DNA of 64,000 nt, taken from Trogon surrucura. Taxonomy: Eukaryota > Chordata > Aves > Trogoniformes > Trogonidae. The notes under the pieces were generated by a model. It was not told the origin of the DNA and made no database searches. It saw only the letters and a list, made by a program, of their open reading frames with translations. Positions 53,401 to 59,790 of the stretch are shown here, one piece after another; positions within the stretch are counted from its first letter, which is position 1, and the number at the start of each line of letters is the position of its first letter. The stretch is taken from the NCBI GenBank assembly GCA_020746105.1, contig CM036634.1, positions 1,178,001 through 1,242,000 of the forward strand, in the 5' to 3' direction. Both the position numbers and the translations under genes were made by a program.

Positions 53401-56400
53401 AGGATCCTTTGCAACAGCGATGGAGCGGTGTCATCAGAGACGCTATAACAGAGGGAGATTGGGAAGCAGCCAGTTTGATTGTGTGTCCTGTTATTATTAA
53501 TAACAGACAAGGGACTTGAGAACCGCATGATCCTGCATGATGCGGCTGTGCAGCATCCTGTCACTTCAACAGCGCAGCAGCAACACGACCGTGCACTGGG
53601 CCTGCCTGTTGAACCCCTCTGTTTCGCCCAGTGACGTGATGGGACCCTGAGGTACCGATTACCAACGACGACATGGGTTGGACTGGCAGAAGATGCTTAC
53701 GGCTGATGGCAGAGCAATTATGGGAAAATGTGACTGTTCTCAATGTTACCTGTTGTATTAATAAGTATCCTCTTTGCGTGACTAACAATGAAGCTTATAT
53801 TGGTTGTGTAATCAAAGCCACATAGTAGGTGTTAAGGTTTATGTACTAACCAGCAGAGTGATCTTTCTTTAGCTAAAAGCAAGGCAGGGAAACCAGCTGC
53901 CTTTTGATTTGTTGGAAGTGTGTGATTAAGGATCAAAGTATGATTTAGGGTGATGGGTGTGAGAACTTTGACAGGATGAATTAAGAGTTTAGTTAAGGCA
54001 TTTTTGGTTATTGCAGTTTTAATTGTTATAGGCTTAGTTATGTTTAGTTGTTTGATAAGTATAATCAAGAAAATTATAAGCAAGCTAGCGGACGAAGCCT
54101 GGGTTGTCCAAAAAGAAAAAGAGGGATATGTAGAGGAATTTCTTGTGGAGCAGGGGCGCGGTGTCCCTTTAAAGGTGTGGACAACCCAGCTTAGGCCTAA
54201 ACAAAGGCCTTGGAAGCTGCCTTGGAACATGGGGAGGAGGAGGTTTTATCCGTTTTGTGAGAGCTTTGAGAGATGCTTGGCGGGAGGTGCTGGCCCCGGG
54301 GGGAGAAGGGGGGGCGAGAGCCGCTGCATAGTGGAATGGCACTACCCAATAAAACGCTGGCGTGTGTAAACCTGTGACTGACCAACTCTGTTAAGGGGCA
54401 GGTGCGGGGACACTGCTGAACTGTATATATTGAGCTGTCCGGAGCAATAAAGGGAGGACTATCTGTAGCCATATTGGTGTGATGGTCGTTGACTTGGCCG
54501 GCTCTCCAAAGGGACCCTTCTAGACTGCACTTGCGGGAAACTCTAGGGAAGGCCAACGTGTCCTGCAGAAGCAGCAGGACCAGTGACTCAAGCAGGGGCC
54601 TGAATCAACAGAGAGACAGGAGAGACTGCCAACACACACTGTGAGCGAGGGAGCAGGGCACTGTGAAGACTCCCAAGCAAGCAGTGGCTTTCATATCCTG
54701 GAAAGGGCTGCCTGTGTGGGAAAGAGGGAAGTGAGAGAAGCCAGCCCCATTTCTCTGCATTCCAGCCAGCACGGGACCTTCTGCTGCCAGCACACAGGCT
54801 CTGGTGCAGGCTCAGCCCATCTATTCCTTGTGCAAACAAACGGAGGCCACAGCAAAAGCCTTCAGACGCCCAGCTGACGGGCGGGCACTCAGCCCGCTCA
54901 CCCGCACAAGCATGAGGGGGCTTGGCTTCCGTCTTCTCTCCCATTTTTGAGATTGCCTCCACATAAGTTAAGATTTTTAAGGCTGGGGTGTGGTATGCCT
55001 ACATCCTATTTCTACAGACCTCTAACGTTGGCTCTCTTGTTTAAAAGCTTAACAGCAACGGACAAGAAGTCAGGAGAGTAGCAACCAACAGTTTTCCCAC
55101 ACAGATGGAGGGCAATTCAAAAAATCCTCAGGTAACAACTGTCAAAGACCTAAGGCATGTTTCAGAGGCTCTCACTCTTTTTCTCAGCCACTCAGAAGAG
55201 TGCCATCTTCCATCAACAGGCTGCAAATTAGCCCTAAGAATGGAATGTGTGGGGGGAGAAAAAACCACAAACTTCCTTTTCTAGAAACACTGAACTCACC
55301 AAGGGAAATGCCAACAGCCCTTCCGGGCCCATAGAACTCGGCTCGTTCTTGGAGATAGGGAAATTTGGAGGTAAGAAGTACTGCAGAAAATCTCTATGCA
55401 GGAAAGGAAAATACAAAGCCAGACCTGGGAGTTTAAAAGACTAAAGCAACGAGACTGCAGGAGCTCCCAAGAACTGCAGTGAACCCAACGAAGCATCTGG
55501 ACCAGTACATCTGCTGTCTCGTGGCTGCTGCTGGGCCCAGTGGTGTCTGGCTCAACTCTGCCACAGCCAGAGGTAGGAGGTTCAGCCACAACCACCTCCT
55601 CTCCCTGCTGAGTATCTGGAGCCTGGTATTCAGGAGAGGGAGGCTTCATCAGCCTCACATCCTCACTGCCCTTCTCCACCCTGAAAACCAGAAAATATTA
55701 AGGGAAACTCAGATCTGTTTTCCTACACTGGCCATGCCTGAAACACCGTTAACATCTTCATCAGAACCTGTGCCCAGCTGTCACTCCAACACCTCTAGAT
55801 TCCCCAGCAGCTGCCTTCACAGGAACGTGGCATCAAAGCGAGGGGCAGACTGTGTGGAGTCTGTCGTGCTCGCTCCTTACGAAGCAGCCAGGCAGCCCTG
55901 AGCACACGCACGCTCCCTCACATGACAGCAATTCACCCGTCTGCAGCATCTGGGGAAGGAAAACGGGGTCTTCCTCCCAAAACAAAACAAGCCTCCAAAA
56001 CCCAGTCACTAGAGAGAGTTACCAGCGATCCCTCGGGGTGGTGTCTGTAGGAACGTAGTCGAACTCCACCTTCCAGCGCACGGCGTGCTTGCCCATTCCC
56101 ACGGCTGTGACACGGCCTGTGAACCACTCCTTGTTCACACGCACTTCCACGTGCAGCCCTTTATCTGCAGGGGGGGACAACAGCACAGAGGTTTGCCAAC
56201 AGCCAGACGCTGGAGAGCGCGTTCTGCACGAGCTCCGCGGAAGACAGCCACCCTCGGTGGGGAGCGAACCTAAACTGTGACAGCTCCTTCACAGAAACCG
56301 TAAAAACACCACAGGTCAACTCCTATTCAGGAGCACTAAGTTTCCCAGGTAACGCAGCTCCATAACCCAGTCAGTTGGGAAGGCTGAGCACGACATCAGT

Positions 56401-59304: not shown

Positions 59305-59790
59305 CGCTTTGCTCTCGGCGGGCGGCGGCGGGCTGTGCCGGCGGCACGGCGGGCATGGCGCTGCCCGGGCCGCGGGGGGCGCTTCCCCGCCGGAGCCGCT
59401 CGGGGCACGCCCGTGGGCAGCGCGCGGGGGGAACGGCGCGAGGCGGAGCGAACCCTGGCGCGGGAGGGGGCGTGGCCTGGGCCAGGGGGCGTGGCCTGAG
59501 CCGTTGCCTCGGCAACCGGACGCGAAGGCGGCGACGCCACCGGTGGCGGTTTTGTCTCCGCGACTCCCCGCGGGCTCCGGCCCAACTCTGCGCATCCTCG
59601 ACCGAGACCCCTCGCCCTTTTCCGATCCCCCGGCCCCTCCCGAGGTCCCCCAGCGCCGGTGCTGCGGTGCCGGTCCCCCCCCAGACCCCCGCCCCCCGGG
59701 GCTGACCCCCGACCCCTGCGGCCCACGGGCCCGAGCGCACCCTTGCGGCCCACGGGCCGGCTCCCGCCGCCTGGGCAGCATGGCCCAGCT
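58540..59790. promoter_or_regulatory. CpG island, bidirectional SF3A1/CCDC157 promoter
   Basis: About 1.2 kb is very GC- and CpG-rich. The SF3A1 start (59,356, minus) and the CCDC157 start (59,780, plus) point away from each other, with about 420 bases between the two ATGs. No TATA box is evident, as expected for a CpG-island promoter. In human these two genes are also arranged head to head. Confidence 0.8.
59305..59356 (-). CDS. SF3A1: SF3A1 first coding exon, apparently frameshifted
   Basis: An ATG at 59,356 opens '[12 protein letters not shown]', like the 'MPAGPVQAVPPPPP' start of human SF3A1. A donor (gcg|gtgcgt) follows at 59,304. The 52-nt exon ends one base out of step with exon 2. 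The last part of the exon makes sense only in another frame, 'PPPPAESKA', which resembles human PPPPVPTEPKQ and joins exon 2 in phase. So a 1-base excess (or 2-base loss) lies between the ATG and the donor, within a GCC-repeat stretch. It may be a real frameshift or an error in GC-rich sequence. Confidence 0.65.

Follow-up and report, generated by a model that had tools for sequence, protein, structure and literature searches.

Introduction

Chimeric genes which arose from duplicates are known, e.g., jingwei and the chimeras of primate segmental duplications. Two further kinds of described systems are comparable in other respects, namely the ampliconic families of sperm genes of the mammalian X/Y type and the processed (retro)pseudogenes. 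The present work concerns a stretch of 64,000 nucleotides (nt) from the trogon Trogon surrucura (assembly GCA_020746105.1, contig CM036634.1, termed C21 in the following, positions 1,178,001–1,242,000), which is called "the window" here. It contains exons 1 and 2 of SF3A1, followed on the same strand by the last seven exons of MORC2, and a third gene, CCDC157, which lies head to head with the SF3A1 part.

As in duplicate-born chimeric genes, parts of two genes stand in one duplicate, both parent genes persist, the join is continuous and found in several copies, and the splice sites permit a joint RNA. Unlike those genes, the joint is common to copies on different contigs, carries a third gene, and has left a spliced, intron-less copy of its RNA in the genome, on contig C67, which indirectly attests the joint transcript. 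The CCDC157 part resembles the ampliconic sperm-gene families, since its copies are many and mostly open where they were read, and the gene is needed for mouse sperm (Ccdc157-null male mice are sterile; PMC10955179); it differs from the X/Y families in its distribution, in a bird, over seven or more contigs. The C67 insert is similar to processed pseudogenes, being without introns and having its exons joined at splice sites, but it is truncated at both ends, is without a poly(A) tail, and a target-site duplication was looked for in vain; two further inserts, on contigs C60 and C7, differ also in keeping one intron. A literature search over titles and the openings of abstracts yielded, among the papers listed, no account of an SF3A1–MORC2 joint or of an expansion of CCDC157 in birds. 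The locus would be a replicated case of a gene joint, made by duplication, for which genomic sequence by itself reveals that a correctly spliced chimeric RNA was produced, and it points to a bird expansion of CCDC157.

We consider the locus, with a probability of about 0.86, a genuine duplicated chimera, composed of SF3A1 exons 1–2, a filler of long terminal repeat (LTR) and CR1 sequence, and the last seven MORC2 exons; its parents are near-complete, its join is recurrent, past transcription in the germ line and a spread together with CCDC157 are likely, and the copy in the window has decayed.

Results and Discussion

Structure of the chimera

Searches of the window by tblastn were performed with human SF3A1, human MORC2 and four bird proteins. 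The letters of the human queries were checked against chains of the Protein Data Bank (PDB); identity was 793 of 793 residues for SF3A1, and for MORC2 all residues but one were identical in the part of the comparison that was printed. SF3A1 exon 2 was the sole SF3A1 match (human and bird proteins, minus strand), and MORC2 was found from about residue 730 through the stop codon, with the exons in order on the minus strand. Neither exon 3 and later exons of SF3A1 nor the ATPase exons of MORC2 were found in the window by tblastn. Together with an exon-by-exon comparison, these results bear out the original prediction, which had described SF3A1 exons 1–2 (59,356–57,972) followed by seven MORC2 exons (56,975–50,366) on one strand, the later SF3A1 exons and the MORC2 exons for the ATPase and CW domains being missing between them. 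Four proline-rich SF3A1 tiles, obtained elsewhere in the window with an ungapped tile scan, were without tblastn support. "Parents" denotes in the following the SF3A1 and MORC2 loci on C21, which served as reference for changes in the window copy; "copy 2" is a second chimeric copy on C21, near 1.26 Mb. The parts of the chimera are the following:

57,617–64,000, no strand assigned: SF3A1 5' end and CCDC157 segment; parent is C21 from 1,628,384
59,305–59,356, minus strand: coding portion of SF3A1 exon 1, 52 nt (recognized from bird proteins and the parent)
57,972–58,084, minus strand: SF3A1 exon 2, 113 nt (comparison with parent)
49,858–57,051, minus strand: MORC2-derived segment, split by a provirus; parent is C21:156,407–162,291
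56,832–56,975, minus strand: MORC2 exon a, with ATG at 56,966–56,964 where the parent has ACG
56,684–56,738, minus strand: MORC2 exon b, same as parent
56,023–56,164, minus strand: MORC2 exon c, chromo-like domain (tblastn and comparison with parent)
55,489–55,680, minus strand: MORC2 exon d, donor cg/ttgggt versus cg/gtgggt
55,300–55,393, minus strand: MORC2 exon e (comparison with parent)
51,379–51,573, minus strand: MORC2 exon f, with a 9-nt deletion which has taken away its final codon and the donor present in the parent
50,366–50,434, minus strand: MORC2 exon g including the stop codon, unchanged versus parent

The MORC2-derived segment (49,858–57,051) is 87–95% identical by piece to the 3' part of MORC2 at C21:156,407–162,291, and the window from 57,617 onward, comprising SF3A1 intron 2, exons 2 and 1, and CCDC157, is 82–99% identical by piece to C21 from 1,628,384.

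A short provirus with an internal deletion is located on the plus strand at 51,967–54,524, in the intron that separates MORC2 exons e and f. Alignment of its two LTRs gives 382 identities, 13 mismatches and 3 gapped positions; the element is absent from parental MORC2, from the aligned units on contig C22 and from the unit on contig C1. Another stretch, C11:934,070–937,261, carries a piece of MORC2 exon d and intron (79–90%) surrounded by CR1; SF3A1 was not present in the stretch examined.

Parent genes

The assembly searched comprised 1.17 Gb in 164 contigs. Parental SF3A1 is located at about C21:1,621,000–1,630,000 on the minus strand, with exons 1–3 and later exons to about residue 579, including the PF12230 domain at C21:1,622,868–1,624,768. 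Parental MORC2 is at C21:158,905–202,171, likewise on the minus strand, and residues 76–1007 were recognized exon by exon, together with the last exon. Both are read as near-complete, the end of SF3A1 and residues 1–75 of MORC2 lying outside the span seen. That an SF3A1 gene must exist elsewhere for viability, and that the assembly should be searched for it, had been pointed out before; the search located near-complete SF3A1 (1.62 Mb) and MORC2 (0.16–0.20 Mb), both on C21. The earlier proposal of a chimeric duplicate thus holds, since both parents persist and the join recurs.

The two parents are about 1.46 Mb apart, versus about half a megabase in human. The geometry of the join is as if the low side of MORC2 and the high side of SF3A1 had been kept and the intervening 1.46 Mb were gone in a copy. 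From the proposal of a deletion between linked genes the geometry therefore stands and the loss of the genes does not, both parents being on the same contig. Tandem duplication of the whole SF3A1-to-MORC2 interval, considered on the basis of the human order, was dropped, because the positions of the parents on the minus strand (0.16 Mb for MORC2, 1.62 Mb for SF3A1) result in the geometry of a deletion.

The best MORC2 matches, of which 120 were listed, came without exception from birds, and the CR1 element is in keeping with a bird host. Among these 120, parental MORC2 was closest to stork, eagle and loon, and the window copy of MORC2 showed the passerine state in 2 of 10 passerine-typical columns. 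A copy from the songbird germline-restricted chromosome, which requires a passerine host, was rejected on these grounds.

The join and its filler

The join is not one point. Homology to the MORC2 locus ends at 57,051, whereas that to SF3A1 intron 2 does not begin until 57,617, and the space between them is occupied by a filler; with the left edge of the unit, the parts are as follows:

57,052–57,616, no strand assigned: compound junction filler, consisting of an LTR fragment and a 5'-truncated CR1
about 57,127–57,262, no strand assigned: junction LTR fragment, broken mid-element at about 57,262 (from related genomic elements)
about 57,297–57,617, no strand assigned: junction CR1, 5'-truncated; likeness to other CR1 copies begins at about 57,297
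48,995–49,857, no strand assigned: left edge of the duplicated unit, also left edge of the unit on C1

In the parents, the filler had no match at E 1e-5 within 1.2 kb past the MORC2 edge or 2.4 kb past the SF3A1 edge. A unit at C67:71.39 Mb matches the window from 57,548 on, i.e., from within the tail of the CR1 (80%); therefore the CR1 was assigned to the SF3A1 side of the join, where it probably belongs. The junction LTR fragment is related to an LTR-like element of 1.19 kb at about 42,321–43,507 in the window, which has at least 39 close relatives in the genome (94–97%). Ten bases, GTGTGAAGAT, are found at 57,183 in the LTR fragment and again at 57,268, just past its broken end; the doubling is perhaps a templated repeat from end joining. 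At the left edge of the unit, about 49,242–49,539, a minisatellite of 62/123 bp is present; it is found again within the clusters of CCDC157 units on C21, C22 and C1 and is a candidate driver of the duplications.

Recurrence of the chimera

Copy 2 (C21:1,259,907–1,264,976) is 96% identical to window 55,000–60,139, and the alignment runs straight across the join. It is cut off ahead of exons f and g and ends inside the LTR of the provirus between exons e and f; a solo LTR was ruled out, since copy 2 breaks off within the LTR. A further copy, at C22:12,462,001–12,465,200, contains MORC2 to window position 57,051, an additional 1.34 kb, the LTR fragment, the CR1 (88.5%) and then SF3A1, with 92% identity to the window in SF3A1 intron 2 and exon 2. 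Its exon 2 retains PPPEVRNIVDKTASFVAR, unlike the changed chimeras on C21, and thus this copy would have branched off before the change occurred; its exon a is out of frame.

Six aligned units on C22 have MORC2 exon f and the intron up to window position 54,997 joined directly to 59,168 onward, and matches to exon f were found beside all ten C22 units of this type. This joint is most simply explained as an internal deletion of the same composite. On the left side, window 48,995–50,300 aligns in one piece with C1:135,850,845–135,852,127 (85%), and parental MORC2 joins only at 49,858. The common join and the common left edge argue for a single founding chimera, which likely arose once and then spread, and not for a misjoin.

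The intron-less insert on C67

A sequence of 0.33 kb at C67:47,502,481–47,502,821 comprises, without introns, roughly the last 12 nt of SF3A1 exon 1 and exon 2 in full, followed by MORC2 exon a and almost the whole of exon b. Its joints fall exactly on splice sites, and the one between SF3A1 and MORC2 corresponds to 57,972 joined to 56,975; splicing between just these positions, in a transcript begun at the SF3A1 promoter, had been suggested before as possible in principle, and the insert corroborates this. Compared to the spliced window exons, 325 positions were identical, 4 mismatched and 4 gapped; there were 3 mismatches to copy 2 and 9 to the parents, with the same 4 gaps in the parts compared. 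Among 16 genome matches only this insert spans the SF3A1/MORC2 joint. It carries bases which are present in the chimeras and absent from the parents, and therefore its template was a chimera and not the two separate genes. Since it holds the spliced joint, the chimera was likely once transcribed in the germ line and spliced as one RNA.

At C60:7,340,959 and C7:37,405,879 the last 18 and 10 nt, respectively, of MORC2 exon a are fused to exon b, and the next intron, between exons b and c, is kept. These inserts can be derived from the chimera or from MORC2 itself, and would be a sign of partly spliced RNA which was written into the genome.

CCDC157 and its amplification

The original prediction had placed SF3A1 head to head with CCDC157, and CCDC157 does begin on the plus strand at 59,780, by comparison with the human sequence. 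The region comprises:

59,780–60,027; 60,743–60,914; 61,519–62,644; 62,991–63,068; 63,400–63,566; 63,700–63,867, plus strand: CCDC157 exons 1–6 (exon reading across copies)
58,500–59,999, no strand assigned: CpG-rich stretch from SF3A1 exon 1 to CCDC157, GC content 0.70–0.84, CpG observed/expected 0.78–0.85

The CpG-rich stretch is likely a promoter common to the SF3A1 side and CCDC157. Exons 1–6 contain 653 open codons, and the gene runs past the end of the window. Exon 3 harbors an in-frame tandem repeat of 60 bp (61,743–62,089); mainly by this repeat its length varies among copies in multiples of three.

A genome search with 9 kb detected SF3A1-5'/CCDC157 sequence in at least 27 places, which are spread over at least seven contigs and include one place linked to parental SF3A1. 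Among the matches listed, the places were distributed as 5 on C21, 11 on C22, 5 on C1, 3 on C31 and 1 each on C8, C16 and C67. The number is a lower bound, with 28 of 8,136 candidates scored; it groups 62 of 94 match rows, the other 32 (short rows, or rows of the MORC2 or CR1 part) having been set aside. CCDC157 was read in part in 17 of these units, including the window and the SF3A1-linked one, and the exons covered contained not a single stop codon, with GT/AG splice sites kept where covered. This combination of many copies with open frames, apart from a shift by one base in two of them, is what would be expected of an ampliconic family. Values of dN/dS in eight comparisons with the SF3A1-linked CCDC157 were 0.31–0.69 (exon 3 repeat excluded). 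A tree of the 17 CCDC157 rows, whose columns were filtered by a 30% rule that also removed the surplus columns of the overlong SF3A1-linked row, showed three groups, corresponding to C1, C22 and C21.

The earlier description had thus seen the chimera correctly; the amplified family which carries CCDC157, as well as the loss of an SF3A1 acceptor and a MORC2 donor described below, had gone unnoticed.

State of the window copy

SF3A1 exon 1 differs from its parent (66 nt) by a deletion of 15 nt and an insertion of 1 nt, by which the frame is shifted; the form of 52 nt is common to the window copy and copy 2. The acceptor of exon 2 reads ttgcaa in the window, and ttgcag in the parent; it is intact in copy 2 and the parent. 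Exon 2 carries two amino-acid substitutions, V to A and A to T; both fall in a stretch which is unchanged in 116 of 120 SF3A1 proteins among the matches listed. The donor GT of MORC2 exon d is present in the parent and in copy 2 and is broken in the window copy. Downstream of exon f, a possible replacement donor exists in the window copy. Two splice sites which are fine in copy 2, one before exon 2 and one after exon d, were therefore lost in the window.

About 293 MORC2 codons of the window, compared to the parent, showed 13.5 synonymous and 40.5 non-synonymous differences (pN/pS 0.85). Divergence from the parent was 5.84% in exons (890 sites) and 6.02% outside of exons (3,686 sites), and along the MORC2 segment, in steps of 300 bases, it lay between about 2% and 18%. 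A constrained parent and a free copy would predict an exon divergence of about half that of introns; the exons were not lower, and hence no sign of purifying selection was obtained. The MORC2 part of the window copy would appear to have decayed at a near-neutral rate, and on the SF3A1–MORC2 strand the copy is taken to be a pseudogene.

The window MORC2 differs also from the bird consensus, in 29 of 219 columns in which 80 distinct bird rows, out of 120, agree to 97% or more; the median of single birds, used as control, was 1, and the five highest values were 4, 6, 6, 18 and 21, the rows with 18 and 21 being dropped later. As a measure of decay this rate was rejected as overstated, since some of the states are common to the parental MORC2 of the same bird. 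The change was uneven across the MORC2 exons (p 0.003).

Origin and alternative explanations

The most likely role of the chimera is that of a once-transcribed passenger of the CCDC157 amplification. According to this proposal, one founding event would have joined a 3' segment of MORC2 to an SF3A1 5'/CCDC157 segment. The composite would then have spread by segmental duplication, the CCDC157 part being what is kept, and transcription from the two-way promoter would have read on into the MORC2 exons; the window copy would have decayed afterwards to a pseudogene on its SF3A1–MORC2 side. We infer that CCDC157 keeps the unit and that the SF3A1–MORC2 joint is carried along.

Several observations weigh against this account. 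No MORC2 was found, among the matches listed, beside the units on C31, C8, C16, C67, at C1:134.3 Mb and at C21:1.28 and 1.29 Mb; some units, then, are without the MORC2 join, which may postdate the first copies of CCDC157. The SF3A1-linked row fell within the C21 group of the tree, which misfits a simple single spread and suggests later exchange. Evidence of constraint on CCDC157 is weak between near copies (dN/dS 0.75 and 0.88 for two C22 pairs, 0.82 for C22 versus C1), exon 2 has one extra base in the copies at C21:1.26 Mb and C22:12.269 Mb, and the reading covers 17 of the 27 units, without exon 6 on C22 and without exon 3 in the two C1 units. The C67 insert lacks the tail of a processed pseudogene, no target-site duplication was detected, and the insert agrees with the parents at two sites which are changed in both C21 chimeras; its source was therefore an earlier or another chimera, not the present window copy. 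As for the decay, the window MORC2 exons contain zero stop codons, and the frame shift in exon 1 opens a single frame of 351 codons through exon 1, exon 2 (in another frame) and the MORC2 exons.

The alternative that fares best, a possible but clearly less probable one, is neutral segmental duplication by way of the edge minisatellite or other repeats, with no selection on the number of CCDC157 copies. The presence of the minisatellite in the unit clusters of C21, C22 and C1 would fit, as do the tandem arrangement of the C22 copies, which are about 99% alike, and the dN/dS of 0.75–0.88 between near copies. Yet the C22 and C1 copies, which are up to 9–14% off the window in single exons, have all kept the frames and splice sites that were read, with the exception of a single base in one C22 copy out of ten.

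That the chimera is a working gene seems unlikely. SF3A1 exons 1–2 would provide the start in this case, and the MORC2 exons the nuclear localization signal (NLS), the chromo-like domain and coiled coil 3, without the ATPase, so that the product would compete with MORC2; in human MORC2 the NLS is at 734–771 and coiled coil 3 at 900–1032 (PMC11879086). Besides the open frame and the absence of stops in the window, copy 2 has a frame which is open through exon e, and its seven donors and six acceptors (exons 1, 2 and a–e) are all GT/AG. Of 300 runs of a neutral simulation with 29 amino-acid changes, 1% retained a frame without stops or frameshifts; with 40 changes, none of 300 did so. The simulation is rough, since 0.08 frameshifts per substitution were assumed, and freedom from stops alone was obtained in 19% (29 changes) and 13% (40 changes) of the runs. 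These points are opposed by the pN/pS of 0.85 and an exon divergence on a par with the surroundings, by the two lost splice sites of the window copy (exon 2 acceptor, exon d donor), and by the other copies: copy 2 ends before exons f and g, and exon a is out of frame in the one at C22:12.46 Mb.

Somewhat more doubtful still is a sperm-gene amplicon, i.e., CCDC157 with the two-way SF3A1 promoter on at least seven contigs, whose other side would drive a C-terminal MORC2 product without ATPase that weakens silencing by HUSH/MORC2 in the germ line, with chimeric RNAs being copied back into the genome time and again (C67, possibly C60 and C7).

An assembly misjoin of the SF3A1 and MORC2 loci, which the original prediction could not exclude and for which the location of both parents on one contig might speak, can practically be discarded: the join is not unique, as the join with its LTR/CR1 filler occurs also at C21:1.26 Mb and C22:12.46 Mb, both sides diverge from the parents instead of being identical to them (about 4–13% in longer pieces), the window contains zero N, and a spliced chimeric insert is present in the genome.

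Other parts of the window

OSBP2 was presumed to lie to the left of MORC2, from the human gene order. A query with the ORD part of OSBP, checked against PDB 7v62, gave a best E value of 0.64 in the window, and the idea was dropped also because the left edge proved to be the edge of a duplication. Window 44,000–48,994 yielded no other match in a DNA search of the genome, and no recognized gene in the frames scanned there. An Rfam scan gave nothing that reached the gathering score, and a single weak match far under it. Pfam scans included three frames from 52,328–62,646 and 17 of the 132 stop-free frames of window 1–50,000; nothing was above the cut-off in the latter, where the best match below it was a weak one to reverse transcriptase, at 30,826–31,314.

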